Below are positions 13,574 through 18,292 of a stretch of 64,000 nt of DNA, in pieces. The position numbers and the translations under genes were made by a program. Positions within the stretch are counted from its first letter, which is position 1. The number at the start of each line of letters is the position of its first letter. Location of the stretch: the NCBI GenBank assembly GCA_009778915.1, contig WRFH01000001.1:186001-250000 (forward strand). Reading direction: 5' to 3'. The notes under the pieces were generated by a model. It had not been told where the DNA came from, did not search any database, and was given only the letters and a program-made list of their open reading frames with translations. This stretch comes from Elusimicrobiota bacterium. Its GTDB lineage: Bacteria > Elusimicrobiota > Elusimicrobia > Elusimicrobiales > Elusimicrobiaceae.

Positions 13574-14197
13574 TTAAATTTTTTCTCTGCGGATTTTCAA
13601 AACCGGCTTAACCGCGACCGGCTGGCACTCCTGCAGGACAAAGCGGTCTTTCTCAGGCAGCGTTTTGGTAATGACGTCAATATCTTCTTTTTTCAAAATA
13701 GACTTGTCATACGTCGTCCTGAATTCATAATCCGCGCCGGAGGATACTATCAGCGCCATACTTTTGGAAATATTGTGGAGGTTGACTTTGCCGCCGGCCG
13801 CTTCTTCATATTTGCCAAACGGTGCTTTTATATCCATAGCTACGCTGTCCGCCAGTTTAAGCTCGAATATTTTTTCAAGCACGTCCGGCATGGAACCGTT
13901 TGTGTCAAGTTTTATTTTATAGCCCATGCTTTTGATTTTAGCCATAAAATCAACCAAATCAGGCTGCACCGTCGGCTCTCCGCCGGTGATGACGACGCCG
14001 TCCAGCGACGATTTTCTTTTGGCAAGAAAATTAAGCACCGCTTTTTCATCGTACGCGTCCAGCAGCATGTCCGGGTAAACAAGCTCCGGATTATGGCAAT
14101 AAGGGCAACGCATGTTGCAGCCCTGCGTAAAAATTACCGCAGAAACGCAACCCGGGTAGTCAACCAAGGAAGTTTTTATAAGCCCGCCTATCTTCAT
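13574..14197 (-). CDS. nrdG: Anaerobic ribonucleotide reductase activating protein
   Basis: 207 residues, a radical SAM enzyme. The CxxxCxxC cluster motif is in FTQGCNMRCPYCHNPEL, followed by the SAM-binding VITGGEPTVQPDL and LDTNGSMPD. NrdG uses S-adenosylmethionine and a 4Fe-4S cluster to place a glycyl radical on NrdD. Here its target glycine would be in the separate 64-residue protein encoded just upstream. It is slightly longer than E. coli NrdG and closer to the long form seen beside ATP-cone NrdD proteins. AAAAGG precedes the start. Confidence 0.9.
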   Translation of the reverse strand: MKIGGLIKTSLVDYPGCVSAVIFTQGCNMRCPYCHNPELVYPDMLLDAYDEKAVLNFLAKRKSSLDGVVITGGEPTVQPDLVDFMAKIKSMGYKIKLDTNGSMPDVLEKIFELKLADSVAMDIKAPFGKYEEAAGGKVNLHNISKSMALIVSSGADYEFRTTYDKSILKKEDIDVITKTLPEKDRFVLQECQPVAVKPVLKIRREKI

Positions 14198-14236
14198 TGT
14201 TTAAACCTTTTTGTAGAACTGCCGATTTTTAGGAAA

Positions 14237-14431
14237 TTATTTGTCTTCCGAGACCGACATAAGTTTCCTCATGCCGAATTCCTCTTTTTTGCCGTTATTC
14301 CAGTTGGATATCGGGCGGAGGTAGCCGCATACTCTCGAATAAACTTCGCACTTTGAGCCGCTGACTTCCTGCTTTTTGCTGTTAAGGTCAGCAAGTTCCT
14401 TTTCTAAAATTGTTCTTTCCTGTGCGGTCAT
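14237..14431 (-). CDS. Stand-alone glycyl-radical domain of class III ribonucleotide reductase
   Basis: 64 residues. The second half, EVYSRVCGYLRPISNWNNGK followed by KEEFGMRK, is the C-terminal glycyl-radical loop that normally ends NrdD (the E. coli radical is on Gly681). The radical would sit on G36 in RVCGY. The first 25 residues form a charged helix (TILEKELADLNSKK) that may dock onto NrdD. It lies between nrdD and nrdG in the same direction, has a strong GGAGGGG ribosome-binding site and its own candidate promoter. The neighbouring NrdD lacks this segment, so the two proteins probably act together. No frameshift joins them: 111 bases and an in-frame stop intervene. Confidence 0.85.
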   Translation of the reverse strand: MTAQERTILEKELADLNSKKQEVSGSKCEVYSRVCGYLRPISNWNNGKKEEFGMRKLMSVSEDK

Positions 14432-14461
14432 AATCCCCTCCGTTTTTTTGCAGCTGTATTA

Positions 14462-14490
14462 ATTCTATACTTTTTGCCGGTTATGTTCAA
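14462..14490 (-). promoter_or_regulatory. Candidate promoter for the glycyl-radical gene
   Basis: On the minus strand TTGAAC (14490-14485), a 17-nt spacer and TAGAAT (14467-14462) lie about 30 nt upstream of the start codon. A weak 8-bp hairpin (14500-14523) without a T-run lies further upstream. Confidence 0.5.
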
Positions 14491-14542
14491 CTGGTTTTTT
14501 TGGATTAGAAAAAATTAATCCAAATTACCTCTTGCCATAAGC

Positions 14543-16615
14543 TTAAGAATTTACTTTCACGTCTGAGAACAGCTGCTCCTCAACGGCCTTTATTCTGCGC
14601 TCGATATCTTCCACGGCGTCCGCTTTGCATTTTGGGCACTCTTTATGTTCGCCTTCAAGATATCCGCATTTCGGGCAGACGCTGAAAGTGGGCGTGATTG
14701 AAAAATACGGCAGGCCGTAATTGCTGCATACTTTTTTGATAAATTTTTTGAGCGCTTTTATGTCTTTAACTTTTTCGCCCATGTAAATATGCATGACGGT
14801 GCCGCCGGTGTATTTGGCCTGCAGCGAATCCTGCAAGTCAAGCAGTTCAAAAACGTCGTCGGTGTAATTGACCGGCAGCTGGCTGGAGTTTGTGTAAAAC
14901 GGCGCGCGGCCTGCTTTGAATTGAGCTTCGTCGGCGCAGATTATGTCCGGGTATTCCTGCTTGTCGATTTTCGCGAGACGGTAGGAAGTTCCTTCCGCCG
15001 GCGTGGCTTCCAGATTATAATTATTGCCGGTTTCTTCCTGGAATTTTATAAGTTTTTCTCTCATAAAAGTCAGCACTTTTTCGCCGAACTGTTTGCCGCG
15101 CGTCGTGCCTATATCTTCGCCCAGCAGATTTACACACGCTTCGTTAAGCCCGACGAGGCCGATTGTCGAAAAATGGTTTTTCCAATACTGGTTAAAACGT
15201 TCCTTGACGGCGCGCAGATAAAAACGCATGTACGGGTACAAATTGCCTTCTGTAAATCTTTCAATGACTTTGCGTTTTATTTCAAGGCTGGTTTTGGAAA
15301 GTTCCATAATATCTTCAAGCCGTTTAAAAAAATCTTCTTCGTCTTTAGCCAGAAAACCGAGCCGCGGCATGTTGACTGTTACCACGCCTATTGAGCCGGT
15401 CAACGGCGCGCTGCCGAATAAACCGCCGCCGCGTTTGATAAGTTCGCGGTTGTCAATTCTCAGACGGCAGCACATGGAGCGCGCGTCTTCCGGGCTCATG
15501 TCGGAATTAATAAAATTCGCGAAATACGGTATGCCGTATTTGGCCGTAATTTCCCACAGCGGGACAAGCTCTTTATTATCCCAGTCAAAATCTTTTGTAA
15601 TATTGTACGTCGGAATGGGGAAAGTAAAAACGCGGCCTTTGGCGTCGCCCTGCAGCATAAGTTCGAGAAAAGCTTTGTTAAGCAAATCCATTTCTTTCTG
15701 GAAGTCGCCGTAAGTCTTATCCATATATTTACCGCCGATAATCGCAGGCTGCGTTTTGAAATAAGACGGCACGTTGAGGTCCATAGTCAGATTTGTAAAC
15801 GGCGTCTGGAAACCGACGCGCGTCGGCACGTTTACGTTAAACAAAAATTCCTGCAAAGCCTGTTTTACGTCGTCGTAAGAAAGTTTGTCGTAATAAATGA
15901 ACGGCGCGAGCAGCGTGTCAAAATTGCTGAACGCCTGCGCGCCGGCGCTTTCGCCCTGCAGCGTGTAAAAAAAGTTTACCACCTGGCCAAGCGCGGTGCG
16001 GAAATGTTTTGCCGGGCTGCTTTCCGCCTTGCCGCTGACGCCTTTAAACCCGCTGATTAATAAATCCTGCAAATCCCAGCCGACGCAATATGAACCCAGC
16101 AGGCCGAGGTCGTGTATATGCACGGCGCCTTCGAGGTGCGCCTTGCGGACATTCTCCGGATAAATTTTGTTAAGCCAGTAAGTTTTGCTGATTTCAGACG
16201 ATATATAATTGTTAAGCCCTTGCAGCGAATAACTCATATTGCTGTTTTCATTAACCTGCCAGTCCATTTTTTTAAGATACTGGTCGACGAGGTCAACGTT
16301 GAATTTCGACGATATTTCCCTGATTTTAGCGCGCTGGTCGCGGTAGAGGATATAAGCTTTGGCTGTTTTGTGATTGTTGGATGTCAACAGTACGTCTTCG
16401 ACAATGTCCTGCACGTTTTCGACGGTAGGCATCGTATCGGAGTACAGCTGCTGTATTATATTTACCGCGCGTATCGTCAGTTTGTCCGCCGTTTCTTTGC
16501 TAAATTCACTGGTGGCTTCGCCGGCTTTTAAAATGGCGGCGGTAATTTTTTTTGAATCAAAATTCTGGGCGGTCCCGTCTCTTTTGATAATTTTTGTAAT
16601 GATTTCGTTTGGCAT
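14543..16615 (-). CDS. nrdD: Class III anaerobic ribonucleoside-triphosphate reductase, without the glycyl-radical tail
   Basis: 690 residues from the ATG at 16615 (AAAGGAAA upstream; an earlier in-frame ATG lacks support). It reduces ribonucleotides under anaerobic conditions. An N-terminal ATP-cone (KIIKRDGTAQNFD, about residues 5-95) gives allosteric control, then the catalytic barrel follows with SMCCRLRIDNREL and FGSAPLTGSIGVVTVN. The C-terminus carries the zinc site (CPKCG and CPKC, about 652-672) and ends some 20 residues later. The expected RVxGY glycyl-radical segment is missing here and is found in the next gene. The first member of a three-gene leftward cluster. Confidence 0.9.
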   Translation of the reverse strand: MPNEIITKIIKRDGTAQNFDSKKITAAILKAGEATSEFSKETADKLTIRAVNIIQQLYSDTMPTVENVQDIVEDVLLTSNNHKTAKAYILYRDQRAKIREISSKFNVDLVDQYLKKMDWQVNENSNMSYSLQGLNNYISSEISKTYWLNKIYPENVRKAHLEGAVHIHDLGLLGSYCVGWDLQDLLISGFKGVSGKAESSPAKHFRTALGQVVNFFYTLQGESAGAQAFSNFDTLLAPFIYYDKLSYDDVKQALQEFLFNVNVPTRVGFQTPFTNLTMDLNVPSYFKTQPAIIGGKYMDKTYGDFQKEMDLLNKAFLELMLQGDAKGRVFTFPIPTYNITKDFDWDNKELVPLWEITAKYGIPYFANFINSDMSPEDARSMCCRLRIDNRELIKRGGGLFGSAPLTGSIGVVTVNMPRLGFLAKDEEDFFKRLEDIMELSKTSLEIKRKVIERFTEGNLYPYMRFYLRAVKERFNQYWKNHFSTIGLVGLNEACVNLLGEDIGTTRGKQFGEKVLTFMREKLIKFQEETGNNYNLEATPAEGTSYRLAKIDKQEYPDIICADEAQFKAGRAPFYTNSSQLPVNYTDDVFELLDLQDSLQAKYTGGTVMHIYMGEKVKDIKALKKFIKKVCSNYGLPYFSITPTFSVCPKCGYLEGEHKECPKCKADAVEDIERRIKAVEEQLFSDVKVNS

Positions 16616-16861: not shown

Positions 16862-17491
16862 ATGAAAAAATTTTTGATACTGACATGCGCGATATTATTT
16901 GCCGGCGCAGCTTTCGCTTTTGAACCCAGTGTGAACGATATAAACAATGCCGTTAAAGCCAAAGAGAATGAGAAACAAGGCTTTGTTGAAAAAGCTAAAA
17001 GTGCTGCCAAGAGTGCCACCTTAGCAACTCTTAAATTCTTTTTCGGCGGAGACGATTCGGCGATTTATCTTAACCCTGATAAGGTAGATATCACGCATCT
17101 GCGTGAACTGTTTGATTATATGACGATGGATAATGAATTTTTGCAGGAGGCATGCCAGCAGGCGGCGGCATTCGACCAAAAGACAAGGGAACAGTGCGTT
17201 AAAGGAGCGGAGCCTTTGAAAGATTATATTTCGCAAATGCACACAAACGCTTATAATCAAAAATTCGATGCCAAGCTCTTTGATGACTACCGCGATTTTT
17301 GGAATAGCTATCAGAGTATGGTGTTTTCCGTATATGACAGCTATTATAGTTCTCTTACGGTAAAGGCGGACTATTTTAAGAAAAAATTGGAAGAAATAAA
17401 ATCGGTAATTCAATTTTCTAATGACAGGTATTCAGAAATAGACAAAATGGTCGGAATAGATAAAAACGCCGACTCTGCCGCCAAAAAATAA
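16862..17491 (+). CDS. Exported protein of unknown function, tandem paralog 1
   Basis: 209 residues. A signal peptide (MKKFLILTCAILFAGAAFAF) is followed by a helical, charged domain. I do not recognise the family. The shared core with the next gene includes LNPDKVDITHLRELFD, TNAYNQKFDAKLFDDY, and the ending YFKKKLEEIK..FSNDRYSEIDKMVGIDK. Two Cys (EACQQ, EQCVKG) are conserved in spacing with the paralog and may form a disulfide. GGAG precedes the start. The unit of dyad-promoter, gene and terminator is repeated immediately downstream. Confidence 0.75.
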   Translation: MKKFLILTCAILFAGAAFAFEPSVNDINNAVKAKENEKQGFVEKAKSAAKSATLATLKFFFGGDDSAIYLNPDKVDITHLRELFDYMTMDNEFLQEACQQAAAFDQKTREQCVKGAEPLKDYISQMHTNAYNQKFDAKLFDDYRDFWNSYQSMVFSVYDSYYSSLTVKADYFKKKLEEIKSVIQFSNDRYSEIDKMVGIDKNADSAAKK

Positions 17492-17504
17492 AGATATATA
17501 AAAT

Positions 17505-17546
17505 AAACCCCCCGGCGCGTAACTTTGCGCCGGGGGGTTTATTTTT
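17505..17546 (+). terminator. Terminator of tandem unit 1
   Basis: A 14-bp perfect stem (17505-17518 with 17527-17540, six C:G pairs plus GGCGC) followed by ATTTTTAT. Nearly identical to the terminator of unit 2. Confidence 0.9.
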
Positions 17547-17593
17547 ATCCGCCGCCGGGTAATTTTCATAATAAATTATGATAAGTAAGAATA

Positions 17594-17657
17594 GGCCAAA
17601 AGACCTATGCGCGCTTAGGCCTTTTGGCCCTTGTTTATCTGCGGCTCTTTTTATATT
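17594..17657 (+). promoter_or_regulatory. Conserved dyad and promoter, copy 2
   Basis: Inverted repeat 17594-17607 / 17616-17629 (GGCCAAAAG with CTTTTGGCC plus inner CCTA/TAGG, one mismatch, loop TGCGCGCT), one C, then TTGTTT at 17631-17636 and TATATTCT from 17652. Same architecture as copies 1 and 3. Confidence 0.65.
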
Positions 17658-17689
17658 CTTATTATATAGCCCGAAAAAGGAGAATTGTT

Positions 17690-18292
17690 ATGAAGAAGTT
17701 TTTGATACTGACATGCACAATTTTATTTGCCGGTGCCGTTTTCGCTTTTGAACCTGATATGCGGCTGGTAACCGACACCGTTAAAGCCAAAGAGAGCGGG
17801 AAACCGGGCTTTTATGAAATTCTTAAATCTATTTTCGGCGGGAAGGAGGAACCTGTCAACAAAAACCTGATAGTTCTTGATCCTGATAAAGTAGATATAA
17901 TACATCTGCGTGAACTTTTTGACGATATGACGAAGGATAATGCGTATTTTCAGTCGCAATGCCAGATTGCAAAAGAACAAAAAATAAAGGATATCTGCAT
18001 TACCGGAACCAAACCTTTACAAGATTTTATTAAGGAAATGGATACAAACGCTTATAATAAGCAATTTGATACCGAGCTCTTTATCAGATACAGCAGGTTT
18101 TCGAATAACTATCAGACTATGACTCTTGCCATATATCAAGACTATTATAATAACCTTACAATAAAAGCGGAATATTTTAAGAAAAATTTGGATAGTATAA
18201 AATTGATGATTAAATATTCTAACGACAGGTTGTCACAAATAGCCGAAATGGTCGGGATGGATAAAACCGCTCTAACGGTCGCTAATAAATAA
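17690..18292 (+). CDS. Exported protein of unknown function, tandem paralog 2
   Basis: 200 residues from the ATG at 17690, placed by GGAG 7 nt upstream and by the signal peptide MKKFLILTCTILFAGAVFAF, nearly identical to that of paralog 1. The mature part is shorter between the signal peptide and the LDPDKVDIIHLRELFDDM core, then follows the same plan (DTNAYNKQFDTELFIRY, AEYFKKNLDSIKLMI, EMVGMDK). The sequence has diverged clearly from paralog 1 in the middle, while promoter, leader and terminator are more alike, which suggests selection on joint regulation. Function unknown. Confidence 0.75.
   Translation: MKKFLILTCTILFAGAVFAFEPDMRLVTDTVKAKESGKPGFYEILKSIFGGKEEPVNKNLIVLDPDKVDIIHLRELFDDMTKDNAYFQSQCQIAKEQKIKDICITGTKPLQDFIKEMDTNAYNKQFDTELFIRYSRFSNNYQTMTLAIYQDYYNNLTIKAEYFKKNLDSIKLMIKYSNDRLSQIAEMVGMDKTALTVANK

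Follow-up and report, generated by a model that had tools for sequence, protein, structure and literature searches.

How can an anaerobic (class III) ribonucleotide reductase (RNR) do without a glycyl-radical loop on its catalytic chain? The question is raised by a locus in a 64,000-nucleotide stretch of DNA, hereafter the window, from an Elusimicrobiota bacterium (GenBank assembly GCA_009778915.1, contig WRFH01000001.1, positions 186,001 to 250,000 of the forward strand). An nrdD gene ends there before the loop, and the loop is found on a 64-residue protein encoded by the next gene, as an earlier note made from the letters alone had pointed out. To my knowledge, all characterised glycyl-radical enzymes carry the radical on the catalytic chain. 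The comparisons and models set out below argue, with a probability that I put at about 0.88, for a two-piece class III RNR in which the 64-residue radical protein would serve the NrdD body in trans. The arrangement is, moreover, far more widespread than could be seen from the window alone.

Results

The class III radical motif lies on a separate open reading frame

The locus shares with known class III enzymes (NrdD of T. maritima, 4COI/4U3E; P. copri, 8P23; T4, 1H78; S. thermophilus, 9D3X) the body family, an ATP-cone, a radical cysteine, a zinc site, the RVxGY motif and the activase NrdG. It differs from them in that the loop is on a separate small protein and that extra helices flank the break. 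Three genes follow one another on the minus strand of the window: the NrdD body, the 64-residue open reading frame (ORF) and an NrdG2-type activase. The body, or large catalytic subunit (14543..16615; 690 residues, ATG at 16615, stop TAA at 14543-14545), matches the Pfam family NRDD (PF13597) over positions 1-538 of 562 (635.7 bits, cut-off 26.2), as well as the ATP-cone PF03477 (83.4 bits, cut-off 25.8) and NF006126 (1059.1 bits). By sequence it has both the radical cysteine and the zinc site of its class, namely C382/C383 in the finger-loop motif MCCR and the pairs C647-x2-C650 and C660-x2-C663, which lie entirely within the body (14627..14677) and whose role is assigned from solved NrdD (PMC9669993, PMC11226230; papers cited by PMC accession are drawn on for the available parts of their text). 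C383 (codon 15467..15469) is the predicted thiyl-radical cysteine on the strength of its conservation and of its alignment with position 420 of the 8p23 chain, which is Cys416 in the numbering of PMC11226230 once the tag of the construct is counted. What the body does not have is the glycyl-radical segment: the C-terminal RVxGY loop, which in class III enzymes is on the same polypeptide, is here a separate ORF.

That ORF, the tail gene (14237..14431; 64 residues), is identified by its reading frame, by its match to PF13597, by the alignment of tails and by selection. It covers positions 531-560 of the profile (37 bits, E 2e-9) and contains the motif RVCGY (14321..14335), in which Gly36 (codon 14324-14326) is the candidate radical residue by alignment and conservation. 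Since the body ends at profile position 538 and the small ORF covers 531-560, the radical glycine of the class III type is on the small ORF only. The tail begins with a predicted helix of about 25 residues (14357..14431), and the body ends, 3' of the zinc site, with a predicted helical extension (AVEDIERRIKAVEEQLF; 14546..14626) that by comparison has no counterpart in joined NrdD. Kinship of the tail with the GrcA family was considered and rejected: apart from its match to NRDD, the one family hit by the tail is unrelated and falls below its cut-off, and PF01228 is not among its matches. Downstream lies nrdG (13574..14197; 207 residues), whose score against TIGR02495 (209.6 bits, cut-off 131.15) marks it as a radical S-adenosylmethionine activase. 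The order of genes, the end of the body shortly past its CPKCG/CPKC zinc site and the location of G36 are thus as the earlier note had described them.

The same note held that no simple frameshift joins the two frames across the 111 bases between them (14432..14542), and this stands. Body and tail share a reading frame, and four in-frame stops (three TAA and one TAG, the body's own stop counted) separate them. It had also credited the tail gene with its own ribosome-binding site and a probable promoter. The former is present as a Shine-Dalgarno sequence, GGAGGGG (14435..14441), before the ATG. The promoter fared less well: the sigma-70-like match TTGAAC-17-TAGAAT (14462..14490) is weak, agreeing with the consensus at 9 of 12 positions, and the stretch has 8 such sites against 5.1 (standard deviation 1.9) expected. 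An Rfam scan of the stretch gave no credible match, just two sub-threshold matches elsewhere in it.

The split is conserved in Elusimicrobiota

A profile search of the phylum found NRDD in 200 of 340 Elusimicrobiota genomes (counts for this search, for the genomes from other phyla, for the whole virus records and for the class of Victivallis vadensis were made by eye among the rows listed). Bodies ending at profile position 528-553 occur in 115 genomes of three families (f1, 81; f21, 24; f15, 10). Full-length NrdD is also present in the same phylum and families, for example in G080 and G081 of f1 and in 18 listed genomes of f21. Loci were examined in 62 of the 115 genomes (28/81 in f1, 24/24 in f21, 10/10 in f15), and in 61 of the 62 a separate short tail ORF lies directly downstream of the truncated body. 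Spacing and frame were tabulated in 61 rows, which include the window twice and omit L046, a locus that has its tail. Body and tail range from a 4-base overlap (11 of 61 rows) to a gap of about 290 bases, some gaps being overestimated because the tail start was taken as the last ATG before the loop, which is at times internal. Each of the three possible frames is represented among the junctions (27, 20 and 14 rows). The Elusimicrobiota tails begin with ATG, mostly after a purine-rich, Shine-Dalgarno-like stretch.

The 62nd locus, in G302 (99% complete), has its two genes on different contigs, the body on C25 and the 60-residue tail on C50, where it lies 3' of a gene for a phosphoenolpyruvate-utilising enzyme; one broken gene is ruled out for this genome because the body and tail genes are unlinked. 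Extra unlinked tails occur in G018, G025, G031, G035, G075 and G099. Sequencing error, which the earlier note had named as a possible source of the split, is excluded because the same arrangement is found in dozens of genomes, among them the single-contig G079 (1,643,562 bases) and G292, with three junction frames and one unlinked case. The presence of a tail at 61 of 62 Elusimicrobiota bodies, together with its recurrence in other phyla, shows that the split locus is not due to chance.

Over 25 tails of the family, the ratio of nonsynonymous to synonymous polymorphism (pN/pS) was 0.215 overall, 0.097 in the loop core and 0.407 in the N-terminal helix; the tail core is thus under strong purifying selection. 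All but four of the 132 loci classed as split bodies have the motif MCCR with its radical cysteine (128 loci), and the four are two loci entered twice each (L027/L089, with MGCR, and L222/L279, with no match). Among 140 loci classed as split, a set in which some genomes are counted twice and a few loci are misfiled, 124 have an nrdG-like ORF no more than 3 kb downstream.

Is another reductase available to these organisms? Class I/II RNR (PF02867) was not found in 74 of 90 genomes of the family, nor in 44 of the 51 near-complete ones, and gave no match in the single-contig G079. In the window's own assembly (G000, 66% complete) there was no match to PF02867, none to the glycyl-radical enzymes of PF01228, and no other NrdD, so that the second full-length nrdD contemplated in the earlier note did not turn up. 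G079 does have a second NrdD, of another subclass (L089, 2522-4930, minus strand). It too is cut before the loop and is accompanied by a tail, MENNKLNKNGQGVGFERIRRITGYLVG..., with its own GGAGGGG and ATG; V. vadensis carries the joined form (L254). Since class I/II reductase was not found in most genomes of the family, split NrdD is probably essential to these organisms and probably their only RNR. The claim that the tail would be an obligatory part of the reductase is well supported by this comparison of genomes.

Split enzymes occur in other bacteria and on a plasmid, in two designs

The earlier note had suggested a search for truncated NrdD with a small RVxGY neighbour, and such pairs were found across Elusimicrobiota and in other phyla. 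A scan of species genomes with the tail alignment gave at least 564 relatives, of which the best 80 were taken; the tail served as query here and in the virus scan, so that both samples favour separate tails. Among these best 80, the loop lay off an NrdD body in 61, and 16 were joined or were joined fragments at contig edges. The remaining 3 (L140, L147, L167) were missed by the pattern, and their genomes proved split when looked at whole. Outside the phylum, 22 genomes picked mainly for separate tails were considered: 21 have a truncated, stop-interrupted or contig-edge body with an adjacent tail, and in the other, G351, split and joined could not be told apart. The split taxa among them include Desulfurellales, Calditerrivibrio, Spirochaetales, Treponema, Termititenax, an acidobacterium, V. 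vadensis, other Lentisphaerota and Thermoguttaceae. V. vadensis additionally has two joined NrdDs of other subclasses. NRDD was found in 125 of 148 sampled genomes of its class; about 31 of the bodies listed end at profile position 525-532, about 10 rows run through stops (G348 was examined) and most others are full length. In Termititenax (L170, 4001-4504), the ORF of the separate tail continues into a thioredoxin/glutaredoxin-like segment (CPGC), recognised by eye and perhaps a fused reductant domain.

Plasmids searched with the tail query of the window's type returned two records, split in Cereibacter azotoformans and joined in Actinomyces oris, and the same scan with a Victivallis tail returned none. 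The complete C. azotoformans plasmid pORIO2 (L302, 1410-3698) carries body, separate tail and nrdG. Body and tail are unlisted as coding sequences (CDS) in the plasmid's table, and annotation may therefore treat the pieces as broken.

The break is made in two ways. In type A (the window, Elusimicrobiaceae, Endomicrobium and others), the body contains the entire zinc site (both cysteine pairs) and closes with an added helix, and a second added helix opens the tail; neither is present in joined NrdD. Type B bodies (Lentisphaerota, Thermoguttaceae) run on for at most about 25 residues past the CP of the second pair and lack the other cysteine of that pair; their tails start like MxKCGxKCEVYSR. 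As the final zinc cysteine is missing from the type B body and cysteines stand near the start of its tail, the tail would complete the zinc site. At the ten f15 loci the body end is short and the tail has no helix.

Many virus contigs carry a tail

When virus contigs were scanned with the tail query, the best 80 of 173 relatives comprised 67 separate tails, 9 joined forms and 4 that were unclassified. In 48 of 50 tail-bearing virus records searched over their full length, no body accompanies the tail, although the records may be fragments; the other two (G389, G406) have a truncated body and a separate tail. On virus contig L190 (3211-6422), which was outside those 50 records, the order is reversed, the tail gene standing directly before the body. 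The open frame of that body is unusually long at 1029 residues, which an insert such as an intein may explain. The neighbours of three tails are of note: a phage lysozyme gene lies less than 1 kb away in L173, ThyX 0.6 kb away in L181, and a phage lysozyme gene 2 kb from an extra tail in an Elusimicrobiaceae genome (L294). In a Pfam search of ten neighbours and tails, four gave no family. A tblastn search of INPHARED returned three records in all, of which the Oceanotoga phage and MT835493 have joined enzymes; in ANMV-1 the loop is on a separate CDS of 435 bases whose annotation reads anaerobic reductase. The orphan virus tails would be phage-supplied radical subunits.

Two further forms were seen among these sequences. 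Ten virus tails (L185, L187, L188, L207, L215, L216, L227, L229, L231, L244) have a zinc ribbon of their own (two CxxC) before the loop, a third design. In L301 (6071-6790, minus strand), an NrdD-type loop ends a 240-residue ORF with no Pfam match over its first ~180 residues; it may be a fusion of a phage protein with a tail.

The tail is predicted to dock as a radical domain

The query submitted to AlphaFold consisted of body and tail joined through the window's own in-frame gap, with stops read as glycine. It was run once with a 74-row alignment that included joined relatives and once with 33 rows from split relatives only (in-frame read-through rows). The mean predicted local distance difference test score (pLDDT) and the predicted template modelling score (pTM) were 83.3 and 0.77 in the first run, 81.5 and 0.76 in the second. 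In both runs the ten-residue blocks of the tail scored 74-90, its last two residues 54-57 and the linker below 50. The best structural match was each time P. copri NrdD 8p2s_B (Z 36.2 and 35.5; 564 residues at 2.7 and 2.8 Å). This alignment reaches model residue 787 and chain residue 735 and thus takes in the tail; those to 8p27_A, 8p28_A, 8p2c_A, 8p2d_B and 4con_A stop at model residue 641-642. In P. copri NrdD, the radical domain is ordered in the active monomer and not visible with deoxyadenosine triphosphate (PMC11226230). The model is in line with a tail that docks in place of the absent radical domain. The earlier note had suggested modelling the complex to see whether G36 approaches the active-site cysteine; the model puts the tail at the radical-domain site of a solved NrdD, in an output that contains no distances.

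Both models place the RVCGY loop between two strands, with a body helix at residues 661-683 or 661-686 and a tail helix at 731-749. The helical moment of the window's body extension gave z 2.6; among 11 body ends z ranged from 0.1 to 3.1, with p<0.05 in 5.

Splitting occurred repeatedly

Bodies trimmed of their C-terminal region, 76 in all (47 split, 29 joined), were placed in a tree by a quick method with Shimodaira-Hasegawa-like approximate likelihood-ratio test (SH-aLRT) support only. Its rows were hand-picked from the best-80 species and virus samples and the Elusimicrobiota loci, and some, L190 among them, have long branches. Six changes between the split and joined states are needed, of which at least four are forced by strongly supported branches. 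One joined body, L009 (G264), is nested among split Endomicrobium bodies beside L044 (SH-aLRT 100). Since it lies within a split clade and its end resembles split tails, L009 is a natural re-fusion. Taken as a reading of these genomes, the two-piece class III RNR is real, conserved and repeatedly evolved.

Next to nrdD in the window (16862-18292) stand two related tandem ORFs of 209 and 222 residues with alike signal-like N-termini.

Discussion

A working model

In my proposal the enzyme functions as NrdD ordinarily does, except that its radical carrier is detachable in the manner of GrcA; it would belong to the NrdD family while lacking one of the defining traits, a loop borne by the catalytic chain itself. 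The large NrdD would hold the ATP-cone, the barrel with its radical cysteine, and the zinc site, and the 64-residue protein would give the glycyl-radical loop in trans. NrdG would install the radical on Gly36 of the small protein. The tail is predicted to dock in the barrel at the site of the C-terminal loop of ordinary NrdD, from where the radical would pass to Cys383. The added helices of body and tail probably hold the pieces together, perhaps as an antiparallel coiled coil broken at its tip.

Several points weigh against this model. The window's own assembly is 66% complete. The AlphaFold docking is no independent proof of a complex, because the query had a covalent linker and the program was probably trained on NrdD structures. 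Confidence within the tail is lowest for the block that contains the radical glycine (pLDDT 76 and 74), and the extent of the structural match is given by the first and last aligned residues, without distances. Finally, the tail helix is weakly amphipathic (10 tail starts gave z from -0.3 to 2.3, with p<0.05 in 1), so that coiled-coil pairing is a conjecture that draws mainly on the predicted helices.

Does separation confer a benefit?

In this model the tail would be obligatory, and it may be exchanged after damage. The earlier note had compared the tail to GrcA (YfiD), and replacement after oxygen damage as with GrcA is plausible. A broader proposal, which I advance tentatively, is that many anaerobes have an exchangeable, consumable radical subunit that would be replaced after oxygen damage, that phage tails would activate or capture the host body, and that the shared zinc site of the Lentisphaerota type would act as a staple.

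It is quite possible, if somewhat short of an even chance, that the split is instead functional but free of benefit, a fission fixed by drift and kept since the pieces still bind. Repeated splits and at least one re-fusion are expected of such near-neutral change, and some junctions overlap and may be translationally coupled. However, the split recurs in distinct clades and in two NrdD subclasses of one genome, and the many orphan virus tails suggest that a separate tail is useful.

It is improbable that the tail is a mere spare part in the manner of GrcA/YfiD, rescuing oxygen-cleaved NrdD and otherwise dispensable. Its small size, the extra unlinked tails of six genomes and the 48 of 50 virus contigs that have a tail without a body speak for such a role, which may indeed hold for orphan phage tails. 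But a split body contains no radical loop that oxygen could damage, and the tail is therefore needed from the start.

More improbable still is that readthrough of stop codons, a frameshift or RNA splicing yields a single chain after all. In the window the two genes do share a frame, a single in-frame stop separates the pieces at L094, L095, L131 and L144, and phage nrdD genes with introns or inteins have been published (PMC3653736). Against this, junctions use all three frames and the window has four stops; 11 of 61 rows overlap by 4 bases and gaps extend to about 290 bases; the stretch has no credible Rfam match; the tails have their own ATG, mostly behind a Shine-Dalgarno-like stretch; the tail precedes the body in L190; and the unlinked tail of G302 contradicts the idea outright. 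Just as hard to sustain is a pseudogene or assembly error with a normal NrdD doing the work, since, although a 66% complete assembly could miss a second gene and the Cereibacter plasmid pieces, unlisted as CDS, may be annotated as broken, truncated bodies are found in 115 Elusimicrobiota genomes of three families, purifying selection is evident, and in single-contig G079 both of the NrdDs are cut before the loop and a search for class I/II RNR found none.

Relation to known split enzymes

The two-piece NrdD has partial precedents. GrcA/YfiD and T4 Y06I, spare parts for the repair of pyruvate formate-lyase, are likewise small free glycyl-radical proteins that complete a large enzyme in trans, and one of them is also phage-made (PMC8683613). 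The difference is that GrcA replaces the damaged domain of a complete enzyme of the pyruvate formate-lyase type, whereas here the tail is of the NrdD type and the body never has a loop of its own. YfiD and Y06I are described as the sole validated spare parts, others being speculation (PMC8683613). In the class II NrdJa/NrdJb of Pseudomonas aeruginosa, the RNR catalytic chain is likewise spread over two genes, both of which are needed (PMC4520616). That enzyme is B12-dependent and the piece split off is no glycyl-radical carrier, whereas the window body is NRDD, and its assembly has no PF02867 match. The split class II enzyme has been termed the only cellular split RNR in the searchable literature, as far as the available text goes.

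Phage RNRs also come in pieces, as in nrdA-a/nrdA-b of Aeh1 (PMC3653736, PMC3267527) and the nrdD of phiAS4, which is in three (PMC3653736). Split genes were reported in 6 of 16 phages, nrdD being among the fragmented RNR genes (PMC3653736). This fragmentation is mostly tied to introns, inteins and homing endonucleases (the cause in phiAS4 being unknown); in the part of PMC3653736 available, a separate radical-loop protein is not described and the word 'glycyl' is absent from the main text. The available parts of PMC4390871, PMC9669993, PMC9531940, PMC1524935, PMC12662201, PMC5759034 and PMC4009431 likewise contain no separate class III radical tail. A class III RNR with a separate radical protein was not found in the open full texts of PubMed Central, a scope that leaves subscription papers and RNRdb outside, so that an earlier notice is possible.

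Implications

If the two-piece class III RNR operates as proposed, cellular split RNRs would no longer be confined to class II, and a split tail may explain loci that annotation takes for broken. The detached radical subunit would offer a system in which to watch the installation and transfer of a radical with two separable proteins. In principle, the radical part could be swapped, or be supplied by a virus; the two-piece enzyme predicts that phages would furnish a key part of their host's DNA-precursor synthesis.

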